21,336 bases of DNA from the IMG/VR virus record IMGVR_UViG_3300044491_001695, positions 1 through 21,336 of that record, one strand, 5' to 3'. The translations under genes were made by a program, and so were the position numbers. The notes beneath the pieces were generated by a model. That model saw only the letters and a list, made by a program, of their open reading frames with translations. It did no database searches and was not told the DNA's origin. The stretch is from a virus. Of this stretch, positions 1-18,852 are shown one piece after another (position 1 is the stretch's first letter; each line of letters opens with the position of its first letter).

Positions 1-3000
1 GCGGTATGCTAATACTGATGTCAGGCAGCGGATTGCTGTTTTTATCGTAACCCACTAAACTGTCGATCCACTTGTCAACTACGTCTTGTGTAGGTTTACT
101 AGTTTCAACTCCTTCGGTTAATAGTTGGTACTCAAAATGAACGTTATTATCTGTTTCTATTAAATCCCATTCAATATGCAAGATAGTATCTTTGTTTTTT
201 ATAAAGTTACGAACGTTATGTAAACCAAATTTATTTGAATCATAAAATGCAACAAATCTATAACCCTGTCCTGCTGGATCAGCAATTAACTGAGTTACAT
301 CGTATGAGCTTATTTTTCTATTTTCTATTTCAGGAATAGAACGTTTGTTTTTAACCCAATAATAATACTTGTTTGCAAACGTTCCAGTAATAGGATCGTA
401 AACTTCTGCTGCAACGTATGTATTATCGCCGTACTTGCTTGTACCACTAACACCTTCTGCTTCGCCTTCAACTGTGTCAGCAATATCGTTCCATTCGCTA
501 GGAAGTAAATCAGTTTCTACCCATTCGTAGACATCGACTTCAAAACTTGGTATTACTTTGTTCCAATTGTTGGTCTTGTATTCTAGGTTTCTTTGTCTTG
601 TATTAAACCATTTAACTGTGCTTAAATCCCACCATAGTTTTCCTACATAATTACTATCCCAAGGAGTTTTATTTCCGGTGTTTGTATAACCAACGTTATA
701 TACCGCAGGATCATAATATAACTTATATGTTAATTCTTGTTCGGCTGGGCCAGCAATTTTTCCTTGTATAGGATCAATAAAATCAAGATATGTTACTAAA
801 TCGCCTGTGGTTTTGTCATATAAAAATACATTTTTAATTTTACTAGTATCAACATAACTTTGTGTTAAGCTGTTGCTTATCCAAGAATTTGCATTTTTAA
901 TCGATCTAAAATCGATCATAAATCCTACATTTGTAAAGGCACCAGTATTATCAATATAATTTGCACTAGGCATTCCTACAAGTATGTGATTGTCTTGTAT
1001 TATCAGTGTAGGATTTATTGCTTTGTTTGTGTCTCTAGTATAACGCATTTTTTCTGCGTAGACCCATGTATCGTTGATATTTTGATAGACGTATACTTGT
1101 CCGTTGTCTTTTATTATATCAACAAGTTCTGTACTACCATTATCAAAGAATGTGTCATTGCTGTCAAACTCTGTTGTTACTTCGTTATCTCCGTTAATAC
1201 TAAGAACTGCAAGTTTGTTTTTTGAAAAATCTATATGCCATCCAAATAACTCATTTTTCTGTCCGGCTGGTGAATACAATTCTTGTGACAAATCAAACAG
1301 CGGATTTTCAGAGTTAAAGTTGTATTGATACAGATATACTTTACCGTTGTCAACTCCAGTATCATCTGCTGTTACCGCAGATACTGCTAGTGTATTTCCA
1401 TCATCTGATAGTGCAACACTATAACCAAAGTCTTCACCTAATGTAGTTGCATCAATATTAGATTCATAAATGTATCTTTGATTATTGTCAATTCTGTAGA
1501 TACTAACTCTGTTTTCACTGTTTGAATCTAGTATACCGGCAATTGCAATTATGTTTCCGTTTTGACTAACATCAAAACTTCTACCAATGTTAATAGCATT
1601 ACCTAGTCCAACGCTGTCACTGTCAACCTCGACTACATCTCCTAAGTTAGGTATAAACCCTACGTAATCGATATATTGATCTAATACCTGCCATTCGGTG
1701 TCAGTGCCAGGAATAATTCCACTACTTCCAAAAATATTTGTGTTTGCTTTATAAAGTATGTTTCCTGCAAAAACAATTTCGTCTGTATAATATGTTTTTA
1801 AAGGATCAAACGTTCCTTTGTAGTTTCTGTCTTTACTATACACAAAAGTATCTGTGTTGTCAAGTGGACTATTAATAAAATAAATTCTACCATTATCAGC
1901 AAAACTACGTACAAACAATCTGTGTACATTTTCTGTACTAAACGCACTCTTGATTGCAATACCAAACTGTTCGTTATTTTGTGGAACCGGTGAAAGTATT
2001 GTAGTTAACGGTCTGTATGCATTAACTACCTTTTTATAAACATGGATAACACCTTGGCTTTCAAGGTTGCTGATAGTTCCGTTTTCGTCGGTTTCTAAAA
2101 TGTCAATAGATTCCCAATCTTGTGCCAAAGAACTAATTGTGCTATCTGCTACACCTGCAGGTATATCTTGTATTGCACGCCATAATGTTCCTCTGTCGCT
2201 TACAATGTCACCTTGATTGTATGCACTAGTTCCGTCAAACTCGCCAATGTATCTGCTCTTAACGTCAGATGCATACGGTGCACCAACTAATAGATATTGT
2301 CCATTTTCAGTGATGCAAACACTAGTACCAAATCCTGCGCCTTCTCTGTAAAGAATGCCAGTTGAAATAAAGCCCGATGCAAATGTATGAGCACTAAATC
2401 CTGTACCGTTAAGCGATGTAGTTAATGCTTTATCAATATATACTTCAAATTCAAAATCATTTAACACATTGATGTAATAAAGATTGTCATTTAAATCAGT
2501 TAATCCAGTAGCGCCAGAAACTTTAATTTGCTGTCCTGTTTCCAACCCGTGTTCTACAGGAGTAGTAATTGCTACTGGATCTGTTTGAGAAATAGTTTCA
2601 ATTGCTTGAGTAGCAATATCTTCAGGTGTTATTGTTTGTATTAAGCTGTATTCTTGAGATTCACTTATTCTCGAATACACTGCTACCGACCCGTTTATTC
2701 CGTTATCCGGTAAACCAACAGCTAGTGTTTGATTTGATCCATTAACGCTAAATGCAGTAGCATAGCCTTCATCAACTAATCCCGATTCGTTAGGCAATTC
2801 CTGCTGTAAATTAAACACAGGGTTGTTATCAAACACTTCGCTAATTCCATTGCCATTGTTGTCAACCCATATTCTTTCGTTAGAGTCTAAATCGTAATTT
2901 ACAAAGACATCGTTTGCATCAGTTATTGCTGGCAAACGTCTACTATTAAGTTGACTGATAATACCAAGTGTGCTATCTGATAAATCTATACTATCGTCTG

Positions 3001-6000
3001 TAATAGGAGTATTTGAATAAAATTCAACAGTATTTAGATTTACTTTTCTTGCAACCCAAAAACCGTTAACGTCTTCGTTTACATTATTAATTCCAACAAT
3101 TTCTCCAATACCAAACGGCACTGCTTTGTTAAATGTTGCAACAAATCCTATTTCAGTTTTATCAATTTGTACTATTCTCACAGGCGAAAGTATGTGTTTA
3201 TAAACATTCCACGATTGCTGCGCTTCTGGTACCCAAATAAAACTATTAACATTTACTTGATTAATATCTAACGATAATACATCTTTTAAAGTTCTTGTAA
3301 AGAAGTTAATTTGATCTAGTGCTACGTATCCACCTGTTTTTGTATACTCTGAAAAATCGTTGCTTGTAATAAACGGATTATGAGTATATGTTTCAGTTTT
3401 TAAGTATACATCTTTTAATGGGTATTGATAAACAAGATCTGTTCTTGTTGAATCTACGGTGTTAACTAATTCGACTGTTTGAGGTTCTAGTCTAAACTGT
3501 CTTTCGTCAAGTTGATATTCAACTTCGCTGAAGCTGTCTGTTGCACCGTACATACCAGTTCTGATAGCCCATTCTTCGTAGAAGTTTAAACTGTCTTGAT
3601 TTGCACTTCCAAGTTTATCAAATAGCTTAGTTAAAACGTTGTTTGTGCCTTTATCTTGTATCATACCTTGATAGAATTTATATTGGCTCACATCGTCATT
3701 TATAATATTTTCAAGGTATTGACGTTTTTGATATCCAATCAAGTGTTGTGCTAAACGCTGCTGTTCAGTATCAAAATTATCGGTGTCTAGATCATAAAAA
3801 TCTGTAAACTGATTAGTTTTGTAATCCCAGTTTGGTTTAAGACTGCTAGTTGGACGTTCTGGAAGAACTGTCCATAACTCGTTTTCAAAGTTTTCTGTTC
3901 CAGCATGTGTAAATCTAGCACTGTAGTAAAACTCTTTGTATTTTATTAATTCGCCAATGTAATAATCTTTGTACGATTCCCATTCAGTAACTGTTGCCTG
4001 GTCGTAAACAAATCCAGGAATATTTAATCCACCATTCCAGTTATCAGTTCTGTAACCTACAACTTTAATACGCTCTTGTCTATACCCCGGTTCTGGGTCA
4101 TAAATTGTATCGTTAAAAACAGTACTATTATCAATTATTACTACATGTTCTTTTTGTATAATAGGAAGTTTAGCAAAGTAAATTCCTTCTTGGGTTCGTG
4201 CAGGTGATATACTAAACACGTTGCTTGCATCTCTGCTAACGTTTGTATTTGTAGCGTTTAATTTACTAGTGTCTGCTTTTAAGACATCATACCCATAAAA
4301 ATTATCAAATACATTATCGACAACGTGATAGTCAGCTGCAAATTCTAAATAGTTAGCAGCAGGACTTAATACTATAACACTATTTGTTGCCCAGTTCTGT
4401 GTTGTCCAAAACAAGAATTCTTTAGTTACAAGTTTAAAATCTTCTAGTGCTTCAGTTTGTTTGTTGAAAAATTCAAATTTAAATCCTTTTTCGATTAGTA
4501 GTTTTTCATATCCTAAAAGAAAGTCTACTACTGCCTGAGTGCTAGACAGTATAGATCCGTAGTTTATTGTTAATATTTTGTTTTCAAATCTTTTTCTAAT
4601 TAGTGCAGTTGCGCCGCCTGATATAGGCAGTTCAGAAAGCTGACTAAAATTAGATGACTCAAACTCTGCGCCTGTTGTATGCCCGGTGTTAACTCTATAA
4701 TAACGATTGTCATATTTTACAATTTTACCAGCAACTAAAACTTTGTTTTCATTCCACTCAATAAAACTTTCGCTAATTCCGCCGACATTAATAGAAGCAT
4801 CGTTGCTTGAAGCTAATGGAGGGTAGTATTCAAAGAACGGATCTTCTTGATTGTAGCCGTTAACTTTATAGCCTTTTGCTGTTTTTTCAAGTATAATACC
4901 ACTGTAATTTAATACGTTTCTTGGACTACTAGTGTTCAAGAATATTTGATAATTTTCATATGGTATGAATACATTTCCTTGATTTAAAGGTGTACGACTA
5001 TCTAACACTAAACGCAATTTATTAATATCAGCAAATCCGCCTAATTTAAATGCAATTTGATTGTTTATATTTGTTAAGTCAGACATATATGTTTCAAACT
5101 TTGAAGTTAAGTTGCTGGTCATATAATCTGCAACATAATTAACAAGGCCCGATGTTTGATTGTATCCAGTACTAGTTTTTACATTAGGAAATACTATATC
5201 TTGCAATCTAATTGATTTTTTATTATTGTAAATTAAATTTCCGCATAGATTTCTTGAAATTCTACTTCTATCAAATCCTTTTGCAAATACTTCATTTGGA
5301 CGATTTAGTATAATAGCTACTAGTAAACTAAATGCATAATCGCTACTACGTCTCCATGCAGTTTCTACAGGTGCTTCGTCTCCAAATTCAAACGGCACAT
5401 CTTTGCTCACATTAAAACTAAATTCTTTTGCATAACCGCTTTTTAAAGGATCGATTAATTGTCCGCTTTCGTCAACTGGCAGATGACTTAATAAATTTGG
5501 TCTGATAAACTTTTTGTTTCTTAAAACAGGTTTGTTTGGTTCTCTAGTAATGCCCTGTTCTATGTCCTGCCAAAGTATTAAGTTGTTACTAGTGTACGGT
5601 GCTGGGCCATATACACTTTCCCACCATGTAGGCTGGTCACTAAACCCAAGCATTTCCCAAGGATGTGTATGAGGTCTATCAGTGTCATACGCATTTTTAT
5701 ATACTGCTCTCCAAAATCCAGGTAGAGGAGTTCCAGTAGGTCCAGAACTTCTACTGTAGTTGTACGAAAACGGAACACCTTGAGTTACAAAATCATTAGA
5801 AGCATAATCCTCGTTTCCTACAAGAGTTAACCAGTTTACAAAATCTGTAATCATTACTTTGTCAAGCTGCTGTTTAGTCAGATTTGTGTTTCTGTAATCG
5901 CCTTGAACAAAATTGTAAATATCAAAAATGTTGCTATCGTAGCTAACTTTTAAATTGTTATAAATTCTTTTTTCTAATTCGATTAATAAATCATCTCTAT

Positions 6001-9000
6001 AATCGTTATATGCAACACTAATACTGCCGTCGTGTCCTCTAATAACATTTGTATTTTGAGTATATGACGAATCTACAAACTTCTTAGGTTCAAACTTTGG
6101 ATAAAGTCCAAGTTTGGTAGGAGTTTGTGGAATAAAGCTACCTTCGGTATTTTCATATTCATATATTTCAACTACATCGCCATTGGCTAATGTTGCAGAT
6201 ATATTTACAAACCCTTCAGTTGTAAAAGTGTAATCGTGTTCATATGATAACTGCAAATTGTTAACATATACATAAACTGCTTTTGTACTTAATTTAGTAA
6301 TATCAAAAGCAGTTGACAATGCATAAAAAGTGTTTCTATAATCAAGTACAGTATATTCTAATTTTTTTGCACCACCAAATGCTAACATGTCGGTGCTATA
6401 AAACGGCATAGACTGTGTTTTGTTTTTTGTTAATTCAAGTAGTATTGCATCAACGTGATCTTTTACATTGCCAACATAACCACTGTTTTTAGCTTCTGCT
6501 AAAAATTCTCTTTTAAATTTGCCATATTCGTTTTTTGCAAAACGTACTGCTTTTATTATATTTGCATCTTTGTTTGTTAAATGATAAAGAGCTAAGTTAA
6601 TTGGACCGCTATGTTGTACAAATTTTTGTCCATACCTATTAACACTACCAAGATCTCTTAAATTTCCAATGCCGGGCTGTGTACCAACATAATCGTCTAA
6701 TTCAGCTACCAGCCCTTCAACGTGATCGTTTACTTGACCTAGTGTAAATTCTGTAATATTGTTGTTTAACGGATTGCGTTCTAAGTTGTGAGGTATTTCG
6801 TAATAGCCGTTTGCATTTTTTGGGCTATTGCTAAAACATTTTAAAACTACAATATCAGTACTTGCAATATCATTTACAAACTGAACATATCTAACTGCAT
6901 TAACATTAACATAATTCCAGTCAACTGACTCAAGTAGATATTTGTTGTTTAAATAAACATTAACTTTTAAATCTTGTAAATTAGCACTGTTGTTGAATAC
7001 ATCAACAGGGAATAAATTAAGGCTATCTTCGCCTGTGAATTTTCTAATTACATATTGTTTACTTTTTTGTGGTGCTTTTGTCCACGCATTTGCATACAGA
7101 AGATTTCCATTGTTATATTTTCTTAAAAACAATTCGTCGCTGTTAACGTTTAAAATTACATTGTTTTCTTCATACTCGTATTTTTTTAATAACAGATCAA
7201 AATCAAATACAATATCGCCAACGTTATTAATGTTTTTATAACTTAATGGAAATCCTAATTCTGTGTCATTAGATCCCGATCCTACTCTGTATGAAAAAAC
7301 TCTATTTCCACTAAAGTTGTTTGAAGGATAATATGTTTCGTCGCCTATAGAATATCCATTGCTATCGTAAAGATCAAACTTTGGTGCTTGGTTTAGTCCT
7401 GTTTTATCTTGTGCAATTTTCCATTCGGTGCCATTGTACCAATACATTCTTCCTGCATTTTTTACACCAGATTTTACTAAAACAGTGTCATCTTCTGTTG
7501 GAGTAGAATCTGTTGTTTCAATTAAACTAATTTGATAATTGTTATTGTGTGTAATAAAAGATACTTGAAAAATCTTGCCATTAACAAAGCTGTCGGAATC
7601 AGCAGTAAATAGAACACGCATACCTTGTACAAGATCTACGCCATCAACATTGTATCCACTTGATCCTTCAATTGTACTGAAAACGTCTGCTGTAAATGTG
7701 TCAACTAAGTCAACATTGTCTTTAGCGTTTACTCCGTGATTGTACAAACGTAAACCGGCATCAAATTCAATGATAGGACGCTTTGCTCTAGCACTTTCGT
7801 CAATTTCAACAGGCTGATTATTAATAGCTGCACTTGTTTCAATAATGTCTTTGTGGAACCAACGATTATATCTTGCCCAAGCATTTCTGCTTGAATCAGC
7901 TCTATTGATGCACATATAATCTTTTGATCCTGCAAAACTTAGTGCATCACCAAACGGAACTCTATCAAATCCATACTGATCAAACGGAACTAGTGTATCT
8001 TGTGTAAAGATAGCAGGAACTTCTAAATTATTAACTGGAACAAGAGTTATTCCTTCTCCTACTCCTTCAACATAATACAATCCTTCTGCATATGTTGCTG
8101 GTGTTACAAATCCTTGGAAATAAACTTTTAATCCGTTGGTAAATTTCCAACCGGCACTAGTGGTGTACGTTTTCTTTCCTAAGATTTCATTTTCTACATC
8201 AATTTCAGATGCTTCTTCAATATCATATACATTAAATGCACCACTTGTATTAATATCGTATTGGCTAATATAATATAATGTATCTGGAGCATTTTCCGGA
8301 ATTGTAAATTCAAGAACACCGTTTTCAACAAATCCGTCTGCAATGAAATCGCTTCTATTAACTAGTGTTTCTGTATCGTCTGAAATAATAGTAATACCGT
8401 CTTCGTATAATGTAGTAATTAAACTACTGTCAATATTATCAACAGCTGGCTGGAATGCTCTACTAGTTGCAATGCTAATAGGATGACCCGGAGTATTAAC
8501 TTCAAATCTGTATGTTTGTCCTCTGTACAGTTTTAAACTAGGGTTTCTAGTTAAACCATTTGGTGTAAACAAATATGCAAAGTTGTCGTCATCTTCAACT
8601 AATGTAACTTGATATGTGCTAACAATTTCTTTGCTTTGTCCTTTAACAGGAACTTCTTGCGGTCCGTTTGGCAACCAATAATATTCACGGAAATTTGTGA
8701 ATTTATCAAAATTAATATGAGGGTTCCATGCATAATATTCTTGACTGTTTAACAAACTGTGATTACTAGTGGTACTTCTAAATGCATTTAGTTGTCCAAT
8801 GTAATCATTGTAATCTTTGTAAAAAGTAACATTGCCGATATTATCTTTGACAACCAATGATGGCTCCAACTGATAGTTTTCTCTATCAGCAGATACATCC
8901 GGTAGATATGTATCATCTACTGTTGTTGCTTTTGATTCTCTACGACCAACAAATGCATTAATTTTTTCTACAACACCAGGTGTAGTATATTGATCAAGAG

Positions 9001-9124
9001 TACTTCCTAAGAACTTTTTATTAGAATCTGATCTAAAATATCTTGGTAAAAGTTCTGCACTACTACGATTATTGTCTTTTCCTGCTGGCAACGGATACTC
9101 GTTCTGATCGTTGTTATATGCCAT
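1..9124 (-). CDS. Giant virion structural protein in the gp7 position of the baseplate wedge (partial, C-terminus outside window)
   Basis: One open frame of 3041 codons with no stop runs off the left edge, so the protein is longer still. The ATG overlaps the gp6 stop by one base (TAATG) and follows GGAGG nine bases upstream. It occupies the place of T4 gene 7 (baseplate wedge, about 1030 residues) but is at least three times longer. Conserved-looking stretches such as EYYWLPNGP, PHTHPWEMLGF, NLRDLGSVNRYGQKF and KWIDSLVGYD match my memory of giant structural proteins of marine T4-like phages. Visible pieces are a cupredoxin-like domain (about 190-306), an FCCH-like segment (about 1980-2040), a calcium-loop motif (D2088-D2099), and a run of seven FG-GAP/WD-like repeats (about 2115-2745) interrupted by another FCCH-like module and two carbohydrate-binding-like modules. 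No transmembrane segment or signal peptide was noticed. A structural role is well supported by context and family resemblance. Equivalence to gp7 rests on position only. Confidence 0.82.
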   Translation of the reverse strand, partial: MAYNNDQNEYPLPAGKDNNRSSAELLPRYFRSDSNKKFLGSTLDQYTTPGVVEKINAFVGRRESKATTVDDTYLPDVSADRENYQLEPSLVVKDNIGNVTFYKDYNDYIGQLNAFRSTTSNHSLLNSQEYYAWNPHINFDKFTNFREYYWLPNGPQEVPVKGQSKEIVSTYQVTLVEDDDNFAYLFTPNGLTRNPSLKLYRGQTYRFEVNTPGHPISIATSRAFQPAVDNIDSSLITTLYEDGITIISDDTETLVNRSDFIADGFVENGVLEFTIPENAPDTLYYISQYDINTSGAFNVYDIEEASEIDVENEILGKKTYTTSAGWKFTNGLKVYFQGFVTPATYAEGLYYVEGVGEGITLVPVNNLEVPAIFTQDTLVPFDQYGFDRVPFGDALSFAGSKDYMCINRADSSRNAWARYNRWFHKDIIETSAAINNQPVEIDESARAKRPIIEFDAGLRLYNHGVNAKDNVDLVDTFTADVFSTIEGSSGYNVDGVDLVQGMRVLFTADSDSFVNGKIFQVSFITHNNNYQISLIETTDSTPTEDDTVLVKSGVKNAGRMYWYNGTEWKIAQDKTGLNQAPKFDLYDSNGYSIGDETYYPSNNFSGNRVFSYRVGSGSNDTELGFPLSYKNINNVGDIVFDFDLLLKKYEYEENNVILNVNSDELFLRKYNNGNLLYANAWTKAPQKSKQYVIRKFTGEDSLNLFPVDVFNNSANLQDLKVNVYLNNKYLLESVDWNYVNVNAVRYVQFVNDIASTDIVVLKCFSNSPKNANGYYEIPHNLERNPLNNNITEFTLGQVNDHVEGLVAELDDYVGTQPGIGNLRDLGSVNRYGQKFVQHSGPINLALYHLTNKDANIIKAVRFAKNEYGKFKREFLAEAKNSGYVGNVKDHVDAILLELTKNKTQSMPFYSTDMLAFGGAKKLEYTVLDYRNTFYALSTAFDITKLSTKAVYVYVNNLQLSYEHDYTFTTEGFVNISATLANGDVVEIYEYENTEGSFIPQTPTKLGLYPKFEPKKFVDSSYTQNTNVIRGHDGSISVAYNDYRDDLLIELEKRIYNNLKVSYDSNIFDIYNFVQGDYRNTNLTKQQLDKVMITDFVNWLTLVGNEDYASNDFVTQGVPFSYNYSRSSGPTGTPLPGFWRAVYKNAYDTDRPHTHPWEMLGFSDQPTWWESVYGPAPYTSNNLILWQDIEQGITREPNKPVLRNKKFIRPNLLSHLPVDESGQLIDPLKSGYAKEFSFNVSKDVPFEFGDEAPVETAWRRSSDYAFSLLVAIILNRPNEVFAKGFDRSRISRNLCGNLIYNNKKSIRLQDIVFPNVKTSTGYNQTSGLVNYVADYMTSNLTSKFETYMSDLTNINNQIAFKLGGFADINKLRLVLDSRTPLNQGNVFIPYENYQIFLNTSSPRNVLNYSGIILEKTAKGYKVNGYNQEDPFFEYYPPLASSNDASINVGGISESFIEWNENKVLVAGKIVKYDNRYYRVNTGHTTGAEFESSNFSQLSELPISGGATALIRKRFENKILTINYGSILSSTQAVVDFLLGYEKLLIEKGFKFEFFNKQTEALEDFKLVTKEFLFWTTQNWATNSVIVLSPAANYLEFAADYHVVDNVFDNFYGYDVLKADTSKLNATNTNVSRDASNVFSISPARTQEGIYFAKLPIIQKEHVVIIDNSTVFNDTIYDPEPGYRQERIKVVGYRTDNWNGGLNIPGFVYDQATVTEWESYKDYYIGELIKYKEFYYSARFTHAGTENFENELWTVLPERPTSSLKPNWDYKTNQFTDFYDLDTDNFDTEQQRLAQHLIGYQKRQYLENIINDDVSQYKFYQGMIQDKGTNNVLTKLFDKLGSANQDSLNFYEEWAIRTGMYGATDSFSEVEYQLDERQFRLEPQTVELVNTVDSTRTDLVYQYPLKDVYLKTETYTHNPFITSNDFSEYTKTGGYVALDQINFFTRTLKDVLSLDINQVNVNSFIWVPEAQQSWNVYKHILSPVRIVQIDKTEIGFVATFNKAVPFGIGEIVGINNVNEDVNGFWVARKVNLNTVEFYSNTPITDDSIDLSDSTLGIISQLNSRRLPAITDANDVFVNYDLDSNERIWVDNNGNGISEVFDNNPVFNLQQELPNESGLVDEGYATAFSVNGSNQTLAVGLPDNGINGSVAVYSRISESQEYSLIQTITPEDIATQAIETISQTDPVAITTPVEHGLETGQQIKVSGATGLTDLNDNLYYINVLNDFEFEVYIDKALTTSLNGTGFSAHTFASGFISTGILYREGAGFGTSVCITENGQYLLVGAPYASDVKSRYIGEFDGTSAYNQGDIVSDRGTLWRAIQDIPAGVADSTISSLAQDWESIDILETDENGTISNLESQGVIHVYKKVVNAYRPLTTILSPVPQNNEQFGIAIKSAFSTENVHRLFVRSFADNGRIYFINSPLDNTDTFVYSKDRNYKGTFDPLKTYYTDEIVFAGNILYKANTNIFGSSGIIPGTDTEWQVLDQYIDYVGFIPNLGDVVEVDSDSVGLGNAINIGRSFDVSQNGNIIAIAGILDSNSENRVSIYRIDNNQRYIYESNIDATTLGEDFGYSVALSDDGNTLAVSAVTADDTGVDNGKVYLYQYNFNSENPLFDLSQELYSPAGQKNELFGWHIDFSKNKLAVLSINGDNEVTTEFDSNDTFFDNGSTELVDIIKDNGQVYVYQNINDTWVYAEKMRYTRDTNKAINPTLIIQDNHILVGMPSANYIDNTGAFTNVGFMIDFRSIKNANSWISNSLTQSYVDTSKIKNVFLYDKTTGDLVTYLDFIDPIQGKIAGPAEQELTYKLYYDPAVYNVGYTNTGNKTPWDSNYVGKLWWDLSTVKWFNTRQRNLEYKTNNWNKVIPSFEVDVYEWVETDLLPSEWNDIADTVEGEAEGVSGTSKYGDNTYVAAEVYDPITGTFANKYYYWVKNKRSIPEIENRKISSYDVTQLIADPAGQGYRFVAFYDSNKFGLHNVRNFIKNKDTILHIEWDLIETDNNVHFEYQLLTEGVETSKPTQDVVDKWIDSLVGYDKNSNPLPDISISIP
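1660..2255 (-). other. Two carbohydrate-binding-like (CBM5/12-type) modules between propeller repeats
   Basis: Two stretches have the pattern Y-x-x-G/D-(D/E)-I-V-x-x-x-G-x-L-(W/Y)-(R/K)-A, then a Trp about 20-25 residues later. The first is AYNQGDIVSDRGTLWRAIQD with W in DWESID (about 2095-2255). The second is YYTDEIVFAGNILYKANTN with W in TEWQVL (about 1660-1825). This is the signature of the small CBM5/12 (chitin-binding type 3) fold found in many phage tail proteins. Whether either binds sugar is not shown by the sequence. Confidence 0.45.
2385..2590 (-). other. FCCH-like module inserted between propeller repeats 1 and 2
   Basis: Residues about 2180-2247 of the giant protein read DPVAITTPVEHGLETGQQIK, followed by a VSGATGLTDLN turn and an aromatic-rich strand ending near GTGFSA. 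This matches the marine phage module often annotated as ubiquitin-activating E1 FCCH-like: 'I-T-T-x-x-HGL-x-TGQ-x-(I/V)-x-(V/I)-SG' then 'LN-x-N-x-Y'. It is a small beta domain found in tail proteins and has no enzymatic implication here. A weaker relative lies at about 3010-3180, with PFGIGEIVGINNVNEDVNGF. Confidence 0.5.
8207..8557 (-). other. Cupredoxin-like domain with altered ligand positions, N-terminal part of the giant protein
   Basis: Residues about 190-306 read NPSLKLYRGQTYRFEVNTPG, then H214-P, and near the end ENAPDTLYYISQYDINTSGA. Marine phage and bacterial proteins with a cupredoxin-like domain usually show L-x-x-x-RGQTY-x-F, GHP, and a C-terminal 'PDTLYYxCxxHxxM' that supplies Cys, His and Met to copper. 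Here the early His in GHP is kept but the Cys, His and Met positions are occupied by other residues (Y284-Y285-I-S-Q). The fold is inferred. Loss of metal binding follows if the alignment is right. Confidence 0.55.
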
Positions 9125-12100
9125 TAATTATTGCCTCCAATAATGAGAGTGGTTGAAGTGTCACTGCTCTGAACTCCTGTGTTTAATATGTCGTCGCTGG
9201 TTACAACTGTTCCGGTTGCTTTTAGCCTACTTGCTGTAATTGCATCAATTATTTCTACATCTTCTACAGTTGCAGAACTAATGAAAATTTCGTCGTTTTC
9301 GCTTTTAATTTCATACAAGCTGCCAAAACTTTGACTTTCTTGTCTTGGTACAAGTACAATGCTACTTAAATCTGGTGAAAGTTTTTGAATAATATATGCA
9401 GCTAATTCGCTAAAATAAAATGTCTCTCCAAAATCCCAATTTTCTAGTGCAAAGAATTCGTCTACTGCGCCAATGACTCTACTTTTAATATCGTTGTCAT
9501 TTACAACTCTATTAGAATTTTTTACTATTTTAAAAATTGCTTGCAAATTGTTACTCGCTTTACTTCCAAACAACGGTTTGTATTTTACCGGATGGTAGAT
9601 TATTTCGTCGCTGATACTCTTTATTTTGTTAACTTCTGATCCATAACTTTGATATAAACTATCAGAACTCGGAGGAAGGATTGTAGTTGTAATTTCTCCA
9701 CTAAGATATTTTCTGTAATTTGTATCGTATGATTTTGTTAACATATACACATCCATAATGTTTGAACTGCTTGGATCAATTCTACGATTTTCATTAGCTG
9801 CATGTTTATATGCAAAACGTATTTTATCTCTTCCGGTGTAAACTTTATAATCAGTGTTTAGAACAAATCTATTGTTTGTTACATCAGCAGTATAAAATAA
9901 ATCTTTTTTCCAACTATAAACTATAGTACCGTTTGCATACGAACTAATTGCAGCAGGATCGCCTAGTGCAGGAACAACTATATTTTCAACTTCAGCATCT
10001 ACATAATCATAAACTTCTGTGCCGTTGCGAGTATATTTCTTTGCAAAAATATATTTGGTTGTAGGCAACACTGTTGGTGCTACAATGTGAGAAAATAAAT
10101 CTGGATCATCAACAACACCGTCGTCGTCGCTATCAAAAAAACTAACTTCTAATTTTTTATTATCAACATATCCATCTGCATCACGATAGGATTTTACAAC
10201 TTGCCATGTCCAATCTTGTGTAAAAGAATCAAAACTATCAGGTTGATTGTTGTTGCTTAAAACTGTAATCGAATCTTTTATAATCTTGCCTGTTTGACTA
10301 TCGTAAATTTTATCAGATCCATCATGATAAAAACGAATTTCGTTGTCGCTTTCAAAAACGTATCTTAAACTACGAGTTGTTACAGTGTACTTTTCGCCAT
10401 TTGTTTCAAACAGCATTATCCAGCTACTATCCAACTGCTGGTTAGTAGCATCGCCTGTTTTTCCTAAACTAAATTCAGCATTTGCATTTAGATTATTATT
10501 AATAATAACTTTCCACTGTCTAGCATTTACATCATATCTTAAACCAAAAGTTTTAAATGCAAATATCTGATCAACAAGTTGAATTATTACATCACTTGTT
10601 AATGCTCCAACAATCGGAGAAATTATTTCAACTAACTGAACACTATCGGGTACAAAGTCATTTAGTATAACAGGTCCTAGTCCTGTATCTGCATTTATTT
10701 CGGTGCCATCTTCTACAACACTAACAACCTTTGTCCAAATGTATAATTTGTCTCCTTTAACACTTGGAGATCCTACTTTAATTTGATTGTTTTTATCAAA
10801 GTACGAACCACTAGGTGCTAAAAACTTTAATAACGATTCTGGTTCAATGTATTTAGGCAAACTTTGTGTATAACTTGATATACTAACTGGAATATCATAC
10901 TGGTCTTCAAAATAACCAGAGCTCAAGTTAGTTTCGCTAGTAACTAATTTCCAATTGATATTTAAATCTTGTATTTCAGTATTTCTAGGATATTTTGTTT
11001 GATAAAAGTTCTTTACAGAACTTGTTTTAATTTTTGGAATTATTAAGTTATTAATAACTGCTTCGATATCTGTTTTGGTACTAAATTCAAAACTGTCTAA
11101 TTGATCATATTCTTCTCTAAATATTATACCATCACTACCGTACATTAGTGTATTACTGTATTTTCCTGTAGCATCACGAAGATCGTAATATCTACTAATA
11201 CCACTGCTAGTTCTGTTTATTGCTTTTGTTTTAATAATCTGTTGACTAATTCCTAGTGTACCAATATTATAATCTTCACCAGTAATTAACCTATTTTGAG
11301 TGTAATATGTTGCAGGAGCATTTGTTTTGATACTTGCATTATCTTCACTAACACTTGAATTTTCAACTACTGTTTTTAATTCAAGTATGATGTTTAGTGT
11401 TTCTTGTTTTCCATTACGACTAATATACGGAATCTGTACGTTGATACCGATTAAATCTGCAGGATTTATCCTAAAGTTTTTATTATTACTTGTTCTGTAA
11501 TAAACTCTAAATTTTCCTTTTGGTAATGAACCAAATACACCATCGCTAAAAATTAAACTAATACGATCGTTTATACGAGTCAATACACTGTAGATATCTC
11601 GTACACCTTTAGAGACACTGTTATAGATAATATTGTTACCTTCTATAGCATCAACTTTTGTCCATAATGTATCTTCGTTGCTAGAACTATCTAACTTGTA
11701 AAGCCACACATCGCTGTTATTAACATTATCGGTATCTATGTTTACAACTGTGTTAGGTGCATTGTTAGCTATTTCAAAAACGTTACTTTTTAACGAACCT
11801 TGACGGAAGTGCATAAAGAACCCTGTGTTGCTCGATCCTGCACCTTGTCCACTGTCTCTATAAACAAAAGCCATTTTGTTTCCTGGTAGCGGTTCTTCTT
11901 CGTAAATTTCGTTGTTATTCGAATCAATGCCAGTACTAACAATTTCAAATTGAGTACCTACACTGTTAATTGTTTTATTAAAACTAAAACTTGGAATGTC
12001 TGTATTAATACCATTAAATCTATATTGTTCTGTAGAGATTCCGTTTATTGTTGATTTTTTAATAGGACGACCAAATGTAGCATTTACAGGCAACGATGCA

Positions 12101-12582
12101 TTTAAAACTTTAATAAATTGTTCATACCAATTAGGGTTAGTACCGTCGTTCCAAATAATACTTTGATTGCTTAAATTGTTTCCATTACTATCAAATATGT
12201 CTTCAGTGGTATTAACACTTTCAATTTTTAGCAAACCGTTTGCAGATTGGTTACGCTTAGGGTTATAACTAATTAAACGTGCTAAACGGAGAATACTTTC
12301 TCTACGTTCAGCAGTTTCGATAAAGTTTTCACGAGCATTTAAGTCAGTACGATATGCAAGGTTTTGTCCAAGGAATGCAATGAGATCAATTAGTGCAAGA
12401 TATTCGCTGCTTTCAATGTAGTCATTGAAATCTTCGGGATAATTCTGACGAATATAATTTATCATTGTTCGACGTAGATTATCAAAGTCGTAACTTTGAA
12501 AATCAGCGTACTTGAAACTCTGATATACTGTTTTCCAATCTTCTGCTAGAAGAAGTCTATTTTGACGTTCTGTACTTGACAT
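9124..12582 (-). CDS. 6: Baseplate wedge protein gp6-like
   Basis: In T4, gp6 forms the ring of the baseplate wedge that holds gp25 and gp53 and joins neighbouring wedges. This product is 1152 residues, against 660 in T4, so it is an enlarged form. The N-terminus (about residues 20-120) has the pattern seen in marine gp6 proteins: NYPEDFNDYIESSEYLALID, then AFLGQNLAYRTDLNARE and RLARLISYNPKRN. The C-terminal part (about 1020-1110) contains a folded-looking segment with KSRVIGAVDEFFALENWDFG. A DxDxDG calcium-loop motif lies at residues 817-828. The ATG follows AGG about six bases upstream, in a 52-base gap that carries a late promoter box. The gene sits directly after gp25, its known partner, and overlaps the giant gene by one base. 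Identity as gp6 is strong. The added middle region has no assigned role. Confidence 0.88.
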   Translation of the reverse strand: MSSTERQNRLLLAEDWKTVYQSFKYADFQSYDFDNLRRTMINYIRQNYPEDFNDYIESSEYLALIDLIAFLGQNLAYRTDLNARENFIETAERRESILRLARLISYNPKRNQSANGLLKIESVNTTEDIFDSNGNNLSNQSIIWNDGTNPNWYEQFIKVLNASLPVNATFGRPIKKSTINGISTEQYRFNGINTDIPSFSFNKTINSVGTQFEIVSTGIDSNNNEIYEEEPLPGNKMAFVYRDSGQGAGSSNTGFFMHFRQGSLKSNVFEIANNAPNTVVNIDTDNVNNSDVWLYKLDSSSNEDTLWTKVDAIEGNNIIYNSVSKGVRDIYSVLTRINDRISLIFSDGVFGSLPKGKFRVYYRTSNNKNFRINPADLIGINVQIPYISRNGKQETLNIILELKTVVENSSVSEDNASIKTNAPATYYTQNRLITGEDYNIGTLGISQQIIKTKAINRTSSGISRYYDLRDATGKYSNTLMYGSDGIIFREEYDQLDSFEFSTKTDIEAVINNLIIPKIKTSSVKNFYQTKYPRNTEIQDLNINWKLVTSETNLSSGYFEDQYDIPVSISSYTQSLPKYIEPESLLKFLAPSGSYFDKNNQIKVGSPSVKGDKLYIWTKVVSVVEDGTEINADTGLGPVILNDFVPDSVQLVEIISPIVGALTSDVIIQLVDQIFAFKTFGLRYDVNARQWKVIINNNLNANAEFSLGKTGDATNQQLDSSWIMLFETNGEKYTVTTRSLRYVFESDNEIRFYHDGSDKIYDSQTGKIIKDSITVLSNNNQPDSFDSFTQDWTWQVVKSYRDADGYVDNKKLEVSFFDSDDDGVVDDPDLFSHIVAPTVLPTTKYIFAKKYTRNGTEVYDYVDAEVENIVVPALGDPAAISSYANGTIVYSWKKDLFYTADVTNNRFVLNTDYKVYTGRDKIRFAYKHAANENRRIDPSSSNIMDVYMLTKSYDTNYRKYLSGEITTTILPPSSDSLYQSYGSEVNKIKSISDEIIYHPVKYKPLFGSKASNNLQAIFKIVKNSNRVVNDNDIKSRVIGAVDEFFALENWDFGETFYFSELAAYIIQKLSPDLSSIVLVPRQESQSFGSLYEIKSENDEIFISSATVEDVEIIDAITASRLKATGTVVTSDDILNTGVQSSDTSTTLIIGGNN

Positions 12583-12634: not shown

Positions 12635-13075
12635 TTAAATTAAACCTGCACTTTGATCAAACTTTAATCTCATTGTTTCGCTAATGCTGTATGGCAAATA
12701 TGTCAATGAACAGTCAATTTGTATACCACTTTCATATGTATCAACAGTGATACTATCTACACTAACACGCGGGTCATAATTAACAATTTCAGTTACGTTT
12801 TGAATAATAGCATCACGTAAACTATCTGTTAACGGTTCAAACAGAATATCCCAAACAATAGTACCAAATGTAGGATTTTCAAGTTTTTCACCTTGGCGTA
12901 TATGAAAATGATTTATAATATCCTGCTTGATTAAATTAATGTCGTATAGGTTAAAACTACTTTTATCAGGATCAACAGTACTGATACCTCTGTACTGTTT
13001 ACTAGTCACAGGCGTTTGCGAGTTTTGAGCACTCACTGTGATATTTTTATATAAAGATTTGTCATTTGTAGCCAT
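12635..13075 (-). CDS. 25: Baseplate wedge protein gp25 (gpW/gp25 family)
   Basis: In T4, gp25 is a small wedge protein at the sheath-baseplate interface. It starts sheath assembly and binds gp6. The product is 146 residues, close to the 132 of T4. Family hallmarks are IRQGEKLENPTFGT (residues 59-72) and WDILFEPLTDSLRD (75-88), with the conserved FEP motif, followed by IVNYDPRVSV and a closing beta strand. The first 40 residues look disordered and may be an added tail. The ATG is 12 bases after the stop of the upstream 533-residue gene. AAGG, overlapping that stop, is the only visible ribosome site, so translation is probably coupled. The neighbour downstream is gp6. Confidence 0.92.
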   Translation of the reverse strand: MATNDKSLYKNITVSAQNSQTPVTSKQYRGISTVDPDKSSFNLYDINLIKQDIINHFHIRQGEKLENPTFGTIVWDILFEPLTDSLRDAIIQNVTEIVNYDPRVSVDSITVDTYESGIQIDCSLTYLPYSISETMRLKFDQSAGLI

Positions 13076-13087
13076 AACGTATTTACC

Positions 13088-14689
13088 TTAGAGGTTTGAC
13101 AGGGTGTATCGACTTTTACTACTACGATAAAATGTTAAAAATCTATCTGCCAATTGTTTAATTAAATTAGCATCTTTAATTTCTATAACGTTAATAAAGT
13201 TTTTAGTTTCAGGCGTTCTTAAACTATTAAATTCAATGTATTCGCTGTATGCTTGTACTGCAAGAGCCGGTGCCGGTGCATCATAAGATAAAAATTTATT
13301 TCTTAAAATTCTTTCATATGTTTGATAACTCTGTAATTGAATATCATTTAAACTGTCAACAAATGTATTCGAAGTAGGCTGTATTTCTCCGTTTGAAATA
13401 ACACCTGTTTTTGTAACACTTGCTTTTGCATCATCCGGGTCTTTGATTAATTGATAGTTTCCATCTTCTGTTCTTTGAACGTTTTGTTGCATTTCTTGTG
13501 CCGCACGTGATGCAGCACTTGCAAGATTTGCAAACGCCGGATCTCTTGTTTCTTTAAAAGTTCTTTTATCTAGATTTCTAGCGGCAGTTGCAATATCATT
13601 TAATTGTGTTACTGGATTGCTTGAAAAACTAACTGCGGCTGTTGCAGCACCAGCTATTGCAGGATTAATTCTTGGTACACCTGGAATATCTAGTCTATTA
13701 ACAACATTTGCGCCAACGGCTGCAATTGCACCGTCTACTCCTGCTTTTAATCCTGGACTTAATCCATTGTATGCGCTGCTCAAGTTACCAGCAAAATCGC
13801 CTATTGCAGTTGTCATGCCTGTTATTACTGGACCCACTCCTGGAATACTTTGTATAGCATTTCCTAACCCTTGCATTAATCCGGTTGCAGCCTGTCCTAG
13901 TGCATTAGTTAATCCTCCGAGTGCATTACTTAAACCTTCGCTTAGTCCAGAAACTAAACCGCCTAATGCGCCAGATAACCCTGTAGAACTTAACAGCTGA
14001 TTCAACATGCCGCCTAGTGCAGCACCCAGATCTCCGCCTGTAGAACTCAAACTACCTTGTAGTCCTTGTAAGAAACTATCAACAGTTATAGTAACATCTT
14101 GTGTTGAAGCATCTTGAATACTAGACCTCGCCGGAGCAGGTGCATTAGTTGGCGCTGTTCCTGATCTAGTAATGCCTCCTCTAGCACTTGCAGCGGCTCC
14201 TCCGCTTGCACCACTAACACTAAATCCGCCGCCTAGTGCAGGCAATCCAGGAACAGCAGGCAATGCAACACCGAGCTGCGATGCAGCATTGTTTAAAGCA
14301 TCTCCTATTCCAGAAGTAGCAATAGCATTATTTAATGCACCAGAAACTGCTCCTTGAAGTGCTCCTTGTATGCTGCTTCCGCTCAAAGCTGCCTGTAGTC
14401 CTCCAGCAATAGCGCCTGATGCAATAGAATTAAACCCTGTTGCTGCGCTAATTACGCTACTAGCATCTCTAATAGCCGGTGCTACCTGTCCTGATGCTAT
14501 ACCCGAAACAAATCGTTCAGCTGCGCCGGGTGCATCAAATGCGCCATTTGTTACACTAAACGTTCTATTGCTATCGCCAGCAAAGCTCAAAGGAGTTTGA
14601 AGAAGTTGTTGCCCGGTTTGTGCTAGAGATCGCTGAGCTCTTAACGCACGTTCTTCTAAATCTCCGAAATTTATAGTAGCATTAGTCAT
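13088..14689 (-). CDS. Gly/Ala-rich baseplate or hub protein of unknown function
   Basis: I do not recognise a named family. The 533-residue product has a very Gly/Ala/Ser-rich body from about residue 60 to 370, with many small-residue repeats such as GALGGLVSGLSEGLSNALGG (241-260), and a charged, ordinary C-terminal region (375-533) with YQTYERILRNKFLSYD. The pattern of small residues every three or four positions suggests packed helices or glycine zippers that could touch a membrane, but no classical transmembrane segment with a hydrophobic core is clear. The gene has its own late promoter box and a strong ribosome site (GGGAGGG) with a short leader, suggesting high late expression. It lies between gp5 and gp25, where T4 has gp5.4 (PAAR tip) near gp5. 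No PAAR motif was seen. Hub component, tape-measure-like protein or membrane-active protein are all possible. Confidence 0.8.
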   Translation of the reverse strand: MTNATINFGDLEERALRAQRSLAQTGQQLLQTPLSFAGDSNRTFSVTNGAFDAPGAAERFVSGIASGQVAPAIRDASSVISAATGFNSIASGAIAGGLQAALSGSSIQGALQGAVSGALNNAIATSGIGDALNNAASQLGVALPAVPGLPALGGGFSVSGASGGAAASARGGITRSGTAPTNAPAPARSSIQDASTQDVTITVDSFLQGLQGSLSSTGGDLGAALGGMLNQLLSSTGLSGALGGLVSGLSEGLSNALGGLTNALGQAATGLMQGLGNAIQSIPGVGPVITGMTTAIGDFAGNLSSAYNGLSPGLKAGVDGAIAAVGANVVNRLDIPGVPRINPAIAGAATAAVSFSSNPVTQLNDIATAARNLDKRTFKETRDPAFANLASAASRAAQEMQQNVQRTEDGNYQLIKDPDDAKASVTKTGVISNGEIQPTSNTFVDSLNDIQLQSYQTYERILRNKFLSYDAPAPALAVQAYSEYIEFNSLRTPETKNFINVIEIKDANLIKQLADRFLTFYRSSKSRYTLSNL

Positions 14690-14707
14690 GGAGCCCTCCC
14701 TATACAG

Positions 14708-14715
14708 TATTTATA
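14708..14715 (-). promoter_or_regulatory. T4-type late promoter box TATAAATA overlapping the gp5 stop codon
   Basis: A perfect TATAAATA on the minus strand ends 18 bases before the ATG of the 533-residue gene. The gp5 stop TAA (14711-14713) lies inside it, so the box and the last codons of gp5 share bases. It matches the T4 late consensus at all eight positions. The leader would be about 12 bases and carry GGGAGGG. Confidence 0.75.
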
Positions 14716-16207
14716 GTTCGTTCATAGTAGTTCTATCTGTCTGCACAGTTCTGTCTTCAAGGTGTACATCCTGGCTTTCGGTTTCAACTGCTTCGGTTTT
14801 TTCTGGTTCTGTCTCGGCCGGGTTCCAGTTTTCGTGTCCGTTCCAAGGTTCGTGTTGTGGAACACGTTGCGGAAACTTGGCTTTTATTGCTTCTGCTGCT
14901 TCTGGTGCATCGGGTCCGTTAAGATGTATATCGCCGCCTTTGATTGTTGTATTTGTTGCGCCAATAGAGAAGTTGCCGCCAGCAGTATTTTTAAATGTAC
15001 TACCACTTTTAATGTTTATTTCGGCACCAGTTGTAATATTGCCATTTGCACCAACTTTTATTTCTAAATTTGCGCCTGCTGCTTGATAAATTGATTCATT
15101 TACAATCATATTGATATTTCTACCAGCTTCAAAGTTAATATCTCTATCTGCTGTAAAATTCATATCTACTTCGGTGTGAAAACTAATACTATCTTGTGCA
15201 TAAACATCTAACTTTCCGTTGCTGCTCATTTCAATCCAACAAGTTCCTCGACTGTTATTAATATAAATCAAGTCTTCGCTAGTATGCATAACAATTTGAG
15301 CGCCAGTTCTTGTACGCAAACGTATCATTTCGTTGTGCGGTCTTGTTACATCGCCGCCCTTGCCGCTGGCTTCTTTGTTAATGTATTCATAAGGAGTATC
15401 TTTAGGTGATCCTTTACGAATTAATTTGTCATCACCATCGTCGATTACAAAGCTACTGCTACCTAAACGACTTGTATGAACAGTAGCTTTAGATTCTTTT
15501 AAGCCTATTTCGCCTTGTGGCGATCCTCCTCGTTTGTCAACAGGTCCTGGACTGCTAATACCAATTACAGCACTAGGAAATTCTCGTTGAGCACTACTGC
15601 TAGTAATGCCTCTAATATCGTCTTCGACTAATCCTTGTTCTTTGAGTTGATTTACAAAGTCTTCGTTTACAGGTCTTTTATATTTAATAACATTATTAGT
15701 TTGCGGTTTGGTAATAACTTTATTGTATTCACCTGCAGGTAGTCTTTTTCCTTTTAATTCGCTAGGAACTGGTCCACTTAATTGTTCAGTTGCAGGTTGT
15801 CCAGCAGGCAACATATATGTCATGCCTTTTTCTGGAACACAGGCAAACCAATAACCAAATTCTCTACTACCTTCAACAAATGTACAAAGAACTAAGCTGC
15901 CCGGATCTGGAGGAATAGCCCAAAACCCATAGCTTTTTTGTGTTGAACTGTATGTATCGTTTTTTCCAATACTAGTACTCTGTGTAATACCGTAAAACGG
16001 ACTAGCATAATAAACAATAGCAGTTTGTCCTAGTGTTTCGCCAACGTTGCCTGCTTCTGTTGTTTTAAGTAATTCAACTTCGAGTCCTCCGAGATAGTAA
16101 GGATCGGCATGTTTTAGTACTCTAGCAATATACGGCCCAGGATTTCTTTCTTGGGCGCCGCTGTCTGCTGTACGTTGATGTTCTGTTTGTCCTGTTGTAT
16201 CTACCAT
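14711..16207 (-). CDS. 5: Baseplate hub spike protein gp5-like, without a lysozyme domain
   Basis: In T4, gp5 is the trimeric spike that pierces the outer membrane. It has an OB-fold domain, a lysozyme domain and a C-terminal beta-helix. This 498-residue product shows an OB-fold-like N-terminus (about 25-125, with YIARVLKHADPYYLGGLEVE and PPDPGSLVLCTFVEG) and a beta-helix-like C-terminus (about 290-432) of short repeating strands, for example SISFHTEVDMNFTADRDINF. Then come RVPQHEPWNGHENW and an acidic tail. Residues 135-285 are a Gly/Pro/charged linker with SRLGSSSFVIDDGDD and show no lysozyme catalytic pattern (Glu, then Asp and Thr in the T4 arrangement). Peptidoglycan cleavage must come from elsewhere or be unnecessary. 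The gene starts six bases after the 778-residue gene with only a weak ribosome site (GGAT), suggesting coupling. Confidence 0.85.
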   Translation of the reverse strand: MVDTTGQTEHQRTADSGAQERNPGPYIARVLKHADPYYLGGLEVELLKTTEAGNVGETLGQTAIVYYASPFYGITQSTSIGKNDTYSSTQKSYGFWAIPPDPGSLVLCTFVEGSREFGYWFACVPEKGMTYMLPAGQPATEQLSGPVPSELKGKRLPAGEYNKVITKPQTNNVIKYKRPVNEDFVNQLKEQGLVEDDIRGITSSSAQREFPSAVIGISSPGPVDKRGGSPQGEIGLKESKATVHTSRLGSSSFVIDDGDDKLIRKGSPKDTPYEYINKEASGKGGDVTRPHNEMIRLRTRTGAQIVMHTSEDLIYINNSRGTCWIEMSSNGKLDVYAQDSISFHTEVDMNFTADRDINFEAGRNINMIVNESIYQAAGANLEIKVGANGNITTGAEINIKSGSTFKNTAGGNFSIGATNTTIKGGDIHLNGPDAPEAAEAIKAKFPQRVPQHEPWNGHENWNPAETEPEKTEAVETESQDVHLEDRTVQTDRTTMNEL

Positions 16208-18550: not shown

Positions 18551-18852
18551 TATAATCCTAACGTTTTTTTCAATTCACTGCTTTTAGGCAAGAAAATTTT
18601 TACTCCGGCTTTCATATCAAAAACTGGATCTTTTAGTATATCCATATTACGTTGTGCAAACACCCACCAAAGTTTACTTGAACCGTAAACATCAAATGCT
18701 AATAGATCGGGGCGATGAGTATATTGCGGTTCAATTTCATAAAGGTAATCGTCATCATCTGCAGGTACAGGGCGTATTTTGAGAAGTTCAAGCTCGCCGC
18801 TTGTGCTAATTACCGTGTTTGCATACGGACTTGTCTTAACATATGTTGCCAT
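18550..18852 (-). CDS. 53: Baseplate wedge protein gp53-like
   Basis: In T4, gp53 joins neighbouring wedges around the hub. This product is 100 residues, against 196 in T4, so it is a shortened form. The C-terminal half reads YGSSKLWWVFAQRNMDILKD, then PVFDMKAGVKIFLPK. This is the LysM-like core seen in gp53 proteins: a Trp pair, an 'A-x-x-N' turn, and a 'G-x-x-(I/L)-x-(I/L/V)-P' ending. The N-terminal half is mostly beta-prone. It overlaps the genes on both sides by one base (TAATG at each junction). AAGGA lies about eight bases before its ATG. The close packing with gp48/54 upstream and the hub gene downstream suits co-translation of parts that assemble together. The core signature and position support the call. 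Confidence 0.75.
   Translation of the reverse strand: MATYVKTSPYANTVISTSGELELLKIRPVPADDDDYLYEIEPQYTHRPDLLAFDVYGSSKLWWVFAQRNMDILKDPVFDMKAGVKIFLPKSSELKKTLGL

Follow-up and report, generated by a model that had tools for sequence, protein, structure and literature searches.

The window, by which we mean the whole stretch of DNA analysed, is a 21,336-base IMG/VR virus record. Its minus strand carries a T4-like baseplate cluster, in which gp53-like, gp5-like hub/lysozyme, gp25-like, and gp6-like genes precede a giant open reading frame located directly after the gp6-like gene; a late sigma factor and an SbcD-like nuclease are encoded on the opposite strand. The baseplate genes and the conserved parts of the giant protein are:

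18550–18852, minus strand: gp53-like baseplate wedge (phrog_7145, E = 1e-23; Pfam gp53, 14.5 bits, below the cut-off)
14711–16207, minus strand: gp5-like protein resembling baseplate hub/tail lysozyme (phrog_13211, E = 1.1e-41)
12635–13075, minus strand: gp25-like baseplate wedge (Pfam and PHROG profile matches)
9124–12582, minus strand: gp6-like baseplate wedge (phrog_10646, E = 9.5e-301)
2–9124, minus strand: giant baseplate-adjacent protein, 3041 residues shown, 3' end past the window (phrog_10938, E = 3.6e-300)
3425–9124, minus strand: conserved N-terminal body, residues 1–1900, common to cultured jumbo phages
2–832, minus strand: conserved part after the propeller, residues 2765–3041 (52.9% identity)

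Between the gp5-like and gp25-like genes (13088–14689) lies the gene of a 533-residue Ala/Gly-rich protein that weakly matches a tape-measure profile (phrog_1272, E = 2.9e-4), around which GC content is raised (45.5% in the 13501–15000 bin).

In relative L009 the giant protein is 4559 residues long, counted from the first Met. Its first 1660 residues matched 60 phage records, each at less than 60% identity; all but two (58/60) exceed 200 kb, and PA5oct, RaK2, 121Q, and Atu_ph07 are among them. Relatives are also numerous in viral metagenomes, with at least about 600 stretches in each of two scans. The window's own clade consists of uncultured T4-like phages that are probably jumbo, a qualification made because the longest of its contigs examined measures 199,328 bases (L168). 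The label of phrog_10938 is "virion structural protein" only, and the PHROG category of the family is "head and packaging"; the baseplate neighbourhood argues for the tail. Homologues of gp6 and gp25 are encoded alongside, and the record of the PA5oct homologue carries an "ESI-MS/MS" note, in agreement with the proposal of the initial annotation that a propeller is built into a giant baseplate protein. The giant gene has the position of T4 gp7, next after gp6. When its product was compared by hhalign with a single T4 gp7 sequence, the probabilities were 0.2% for the N-terminal part and 0.3% for the long insert in blade 2 that is described below.

The initial annotation had reported seven repeats of a common form that starts with FG. 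The seven stretches are all found where stated there, to within 18 bases, with FG-equivalent codons at 2767, 2332, 1966, 1588, 1429, 1246, and 1018 (minus strand). They are degenerate FG-GAP stretches, and since just four of them (blades 2, 3, 5, and 6) contain the literal FG dipeptide, the repeats are less uniform than first described. The predicted propeller is laid out as follows:

905–2812, minus strand: seven-bladed FG-GAP propeller, residues 2105–2740 (Pfam, profiles, AlphaFold2, Foldseek, VIA)
2792–2812, minus strand: strand before blade 1, residues 2105–2111, interpreted as blade 7's outer strand D (Velcro closure)
2630–2767, minus strand: blade 1 (profiles and AlphaFold2 strands)
1997–2332, minus strand: blade 2, its B-C loop holding a CBM5/12-like module (profiles and AlphaFold2 strands)
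1643–1966, minus strand: blade 3, its C-D loop holding a CBM5/12-like module (profiles and AlphaFold2 strands)
1451–1588, minus strand: blade 4 (profiles and AlphaFold2 strands)
1277–1429, minus strand: blade 5, best Pfam FG-GAP_2 match (Pfam, profiles, AlphaFold2 strands)
1049–1246, minus strand: blade 6, B-C loop variable in length (profiles, AlphaFold2 strands, loop comparison)
905–1018, minus strand: blade 7, strands A–C, weakest by sequence (profiles and AlphaFold2 strands)

Pfam FG-GAP_2 (PF14312) matched the giant protein at 42.9 bits, above the cut-off of 23 (E = 5.6e-11); as a single stretch, only blade 5 passed. When the repeats were compared with each other by profile-profile search, using profiles built from 67 non-redundant sequences, 14 of the 21 blade pairs gave probabilities of 72–99%. 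The weak pairs were blade 3 with blade 4 (2.8%) and six that all involve blade 7 (57.7, 32.7, 18.0, 9.1, 0.7, and 0.4% with blades 2, 5, 6, 1, 3, and 4, respectively). Control probabilities were at most 2.3% for blades against inserted modules (21 comparisons) and at most 11.6% for blades against slices of the body (210 comparisons). In a stricter test, short leave-one-out models of the A-B hairpin were set against 500 shuffles. Blades 2 and 5 were recovered, with 0/500 shuffles as good; blades 1 and 4 were marginal (20/500 and 34/500), and blades 3, 6, and 7 were not recovered by these models.

The hairpin misses and the weak profile of blade 7 would fit a reading in which the repeats form no propeller, or the slot they occupy is neutral filler, which we find hardly credible in the face of the structural model. 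AlphaFold2 modelled residues 2086–2772 confidently (67 aligned sequences; mean pLDDT 88.3, pTM 0.84), and strands A–D can be read in each of the blades; in blade 3, strand D has just two residues. Judging by strand order rather than coordinates, the strand at 2105–2111 would serve as strand D of blade 7 and close the ring in Velcro fashion. Integrin alpha came first in the Foldseek search (best PDB match integrin alpha5, E = 2.5e-10, TM by target 0.62), and VIA aligned the model to integrin alphaM with Z = 25.4 over 361 residues; WD40 proteins gave similar Z. The best 50 matches among viral models included giant-virus FG-GAP proteins, an uncultured phage FG-GAP protein, an Atu_ph07 "hemagglutinin", and an S-TIM5 protein. 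The fold proposed in the initial annotation is thus reproduced by the model, and a seven-bladed integrin-type FG-GAP beta-propeller is strongly predicted.

A WD40 propeller was considered in place of FG-GAP and rejected. Because VIA scores both chain types equally (Z = 24.5–26.1 among the matches listed), the fold alone cannot decide between them; the sequence favours FG-GAP.

The extra modules announced in the initial annotation are present, although only one of them lies between blades, as had been described: an E1_FCCH-like module separates blades 1 and 2, and two CBM5/12-like modules are inserted inside blades 2 and 3. Pfam CBM_5_12 scored 41.8 bits on the whole giant protein (cut-off 26.2), with two stretches, the better at residues 1456–1487. 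The modules are:

4637–4759, minus strand: CBM5/12-like module 1, residues 1456–1496, in the body (contains the best Pfam stretch)
3857–3985, minus strand: CBM5/12-like module 2, residues 1714–1756, in the body (weak; 10.2 bits with a home-made model)
2357–2620, minus strand: E1_FCCH-like module, residues 2169–2256, between blades 1 and 2 (Pfam 23.9 bits, below the cut-off of 29.5)
2102–2245, minus strand: CBM5/12-like module 3, residues 2294–2341, in blade 2 (profiles, home-made model)
1673–1819, minus strand: CBM5/12-like module 4, residues 2436–2484, in blade 3 (profiles)

The home-made search model was built from module 4 (2436–2484). Modules 3 and 4 are related to each other (97.8% profile-profile probability), and by profile the CBM-like modules matched phage tail fibre or tailspike chains (E = 7.7e-6 and 1.4e-5) and a chitinase (E = 0.0021). 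Chitin-binding modules of this kind typically have aromatic residues; the aromatic residues of chitin binders were looked for in the sequence of the blade 3 module and were not seen. At the place of module 1, PA5oct, Atu_ph07, Phosso, and SCTP-2 have weaker Pfam matches below the cut-off. The E1_FCCH-like module is filled in 12 of the 67 aligned rows, as judged from sampled columns.

We gathered 231 loci, some from the same contigs, of which 185 cover both the body's end and the region that follows the propeller. A propeller core (score threshold 20) was found in 59/59 spanning loci from the search for closest relatives (80 fetched), a conservation that argues further against absence of a propeller or neutral filler. 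It was also found in 60/60 spanning loci of the propeller-based searches, which are not independent, having been found by the propeller itself, and in 50/61 of a distant search. L218 (score 16.4) was counted as lacking the propeller; by eye, its sequence has FG-GAP-like repeats. Cultured jumbo phages PA5oct, 121Q, Atu_ph07, Phosso, and SCTP-2 share the N- and C-terminal parts of the giant protein, and the propeller is absent there (0/5). A quick tree of 130 non-redundant body sequences, rooted at the midpoint and containing some long branches, was divided by a well-supported branch into 115 propeller rows plus L218 and the 14 remaining rows; L215 is the IMG/VR copy of Atu_ph07. We conclude that the propeller is restricted to one clade of those examined.

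Where the propeller is lacking, the slot holds only a short stretch in 121Q (225 residues) and PA5oct (336 residues). By eye, long glycine-rich repeats of GxGYxxxPxVxI type fill it in Atu_ph07, Phosso, L158, L162, and L193. The SCTP-2 slot (residues ~2110–2330 of the L007 giant protein) has by eye the look of a LamG/concanavalin-type lectin; no such Pfam match was obtained.

Searching cultured phage records by tblastn with the propeller sequence of the window or of L062 gave no match, and with that of L083 gave two weak places, of which one belongs to an uncultured phage record and the other to a different Phosso gene. Two stretches of prokaryote genome contigs matched a single peptide pattern, and none was confirmed as a propeller; neither was any of 11 stretches from a scan of viral contigs based on SCTP-2. 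The complete records of PA5oct, SCTP-2, and 121Q contain no FG-GAP_2 match, and in Atu_ph07 and Phosso FG-GAP_2 occurs in separate proteins. One of these, Atu_ph07 gp320 (L243 9019–10200), is a free-standing FG-GAP protein annotated as "hemagglutinin protein" whose gene adjoins tail sheath genes. Phosso has two adjacent giant open reading frames of 3182 and 3702 residues with many FG-GAP_2 repeats (48338–57826 and 57900–68978; L244 4339–13827 and 13901–24979), further FG-GAP frames of ~400 residues near 92–94 kb, and 42 FG-GAP_2 matches in total.

The slot changes faster than its two flanks. Across 20 sequences, pairwise identity averages 57.2% for the body and 52.9% for the part behind the propeller, against 39.0% for the propeller itself and 35.1% for residues 1901–2095, just ahead of it. 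A second faster-changing stretch, past the end of the window, is seen at residues 3890–4089 of the L009 giant protein (38.0% mean identity).

Variation in loop length is unevenly distributed within the propeller. The length ranges are 0–1 residues for A-B loops (7/7), 2–20 for C-D, 5–758 for B-C, and 1–96 for D-A, with medians of 0, 5, 16, and 13 residues, respectively; B-C and D-A loops vary more than A-B and C-D loops (one-sided Mann-Whitney p = 2.4e-4, 14 versus 13 loops). Extra blade 1 B-C residues in two rows may be misaligned FCCH-like modules. In standard propeller topology, B-C and D-A loops lie on one face, opposite the attachment point, and we presume from that topology, rather than from coordinates, that these are the top loops. 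Only length variation is one-sided, because residue entropy is as high in C-D loops as in B-C loops (2.36 versus 2.35).

The largest length change is due to an insert in blade 2. Among 116 loci with a complete propeller, delimited in relatives with a score threshold since CBM matches elsewhere pollute, 80 are short and 36 long. After removal of near-copies, 31/31 long rows carry an insert of 456–758 residues after residue 2321 (window position 2162), inside the blade 2 CBM-like module. In the 171 records measured, inserts are small or have 454 residues or more, with a single exception of 153; the largest has 1168. In the tree, inserts of 400 residues or more occur in 44 of the 115 propeller rows, and at least three changes are required. 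AlphaFold2 modelled the L083 insert confidently (pLDDT 89.4, pTM 0.85). It had no PDB match at E ≤ 0.001 and no PHROG match; the best VIA Z was 7.1 over 79 residues, and one part resembles a domain of translation factors. When long inserts were compared with Pfam, each family was matched by 1 of the 31 members (best E = 0.016). In the contig of L168 (G001; 153573–154058 and 158791–159765), open reading frames of 1846 and 2786 residues repeatedly match the CBM-like part of the propeller profile.

On balance, we lean toward a host-facing role, in which the propeller, set in a variable slot of the giant baseplate protein, would be a platform that binds a glycan or protein of the host surface during adsorption. 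The chain would enter and leave the propeller by its bottom face, through strands D and C of blade 7, and, because it is attached there, the opposite face would point away from the baseplate body. That face would bear the B-C and D-A loops, most of the length variation, and all the inserted modules but one. Together with the CBM5/12-like module and, in many relatives, the large extra domain, it may bind host-surface glycan or protein and help the baseplate hold to the cell. Host contact is made more likely by the faster-changing slot, the CBM-like modules, and the length change in the presumed top loops. Phi11 Gp45 and the Vp4 wedge Gp119, compared below, are precedents for host binding, and phiKZ gp131 is a speculative one. 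Counter to host contact, the CBM-like module of blade 3 interrupts a C-D loop and would therefore sit on the bottom face, residue entropy does not separate the faces, and faster change of the slot could reflect relaxed constraint.

The main rival, a real possibility though one we would not bet on, is that the propeller is a structural dock for tail fibres or neighbouring wedges, its modules contacting parts of the virion and not the host. The SU10 nozzle provides a precedent, its seven-bladed propeller docking a short tail fibre through a blade 1 loop (PMC9509320). The gene order is compatible with such a role: the giant gene follows gp6, and in L003 the second gene after it, one gene further on, encodes a tail-collar domain (E = 3.2e-10). 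In the long insert, residues 130–199 of the L083 model resemble T4 and T4-like baseplate chains with VIA Z = 6.7–7.0 over 69–70 residues, below the level that the tool considers meaningful. However, baseplate assembly as such does not require the propeller, since five cultured relatives that share the body do without it, and the CBM-like modules and faster change fit an external contact better.

That the propeller is instead an enzyme acting on glycans, for instance one of sialidase type, appears very unlikely. Some phage propellers are indeed endosialidases (PMC4901313), and a weak profile match to serum paraoxonase was obtained (E = 0.0087 and worse), but the giant protein matched no Pfam enzyme family at E = 1, and integrins and WD40 scaffolds are better matches in both sequence and fold.

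Host binding by the propeller may be part of a more elaborate arrangement, which we put forward tentatively and with considerable doubt. The slot could be an exchangeable receptor-binding site at two levels, whole platforms being swapped in a conserved wedge body and a large domain being gained or lost in the CBM-like module on top of blade 2. The alternative platforms at this one place would be an integrin-type propeller, glycine-rich repeats, or a short stretch. If true, this would be an independent phage counterpart of the integrin I domain on its propeller. A propeller fixed in the baseplate body, and not on a fibre, would be a host-contact device readable from metagenomes; the slot and the top-face inserts offer a concrete place to seek host-range determinants of uncultured phages.

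Propellers in phage tails are already known, and the one described here is a new version of these. Judged by their titles and abstract openings, the papers listed in full-text searches (15 of 39 and 6 of 8 in two of these), with subscription papers largely uncovered, describe no FG-GAP propeller in a phage baseplate protein. The term "beta-propeller" occurs five times in a paper on gut phages (PMC10607447); the main text of the Atu_ph07 paper (PMC6102473) contains neither "propeller" nor "FG-GAP", and a 2026 review of jumbo phages (PMC13282480) does not contain "propeller".

The integrin alpha propeller resembles the phage domain in its seven blades and FG-GAP-type repeats and is its best Foldseek match. 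In I-domain integrins, a large insert is carried on the top face of the propeller near blades 2–3, and the A-B turns of integrin alpha hold calcium loops of DxDxDG type. The A-B loops of the phage propeller (NGSNQ, TENGQ, STENV, SQNGN, SDDGN, KN, and DN) do not fit DxDxDG. The phage domain differs further in its degenerate motif, in being part of a baseplate protein, and in sequence (8–14% identity to the integrin rows among the Foldseek matches listed). Atu_ph07 gp320 and the Phosso FG-GAP proteins come from jumbo phages with the same giant-protein body, but there FG-GAP repeats are encoded by separate genes and the gp6-adjacent giant proteins have no propeller.

Among propellers of known phage tails, the C-terminal domain of phiKZ gp131 (PDB 4GBF) also has seven blades and is located at the periphery of the phiKZ baseplate; its binding to a receptor is given as speculation only where PMC4901313 discusses it. 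A sequence-profile search matched 28 PDB sequences at E ≤ 1, and 4GBF was not one of them. Gp45, the phi11 receptor-binding protein, likewise uses a propeller as a platform in a baseplate, with a platform cavity that could hold GlcNAc; unlike the propeller described here, it has five blades and forms a homotrimer with a coiled-coil stem (PMC4901313). The SU10 nozzle is a tail protein with a seven-bladed propeller and with domains inserted between blades 2 and 3, but it belongs to a short tail, whose channel is lined by its blades (PMC9509320). Vp4 Gp119 differs in having CBM16-like and xylanase-CBM-like folds, with no propeller mentioned in the main text of its description, and resembles the giant protein as a baseplate wedge with carbohydrate-binding module folds that binds cells (PMC11406892).
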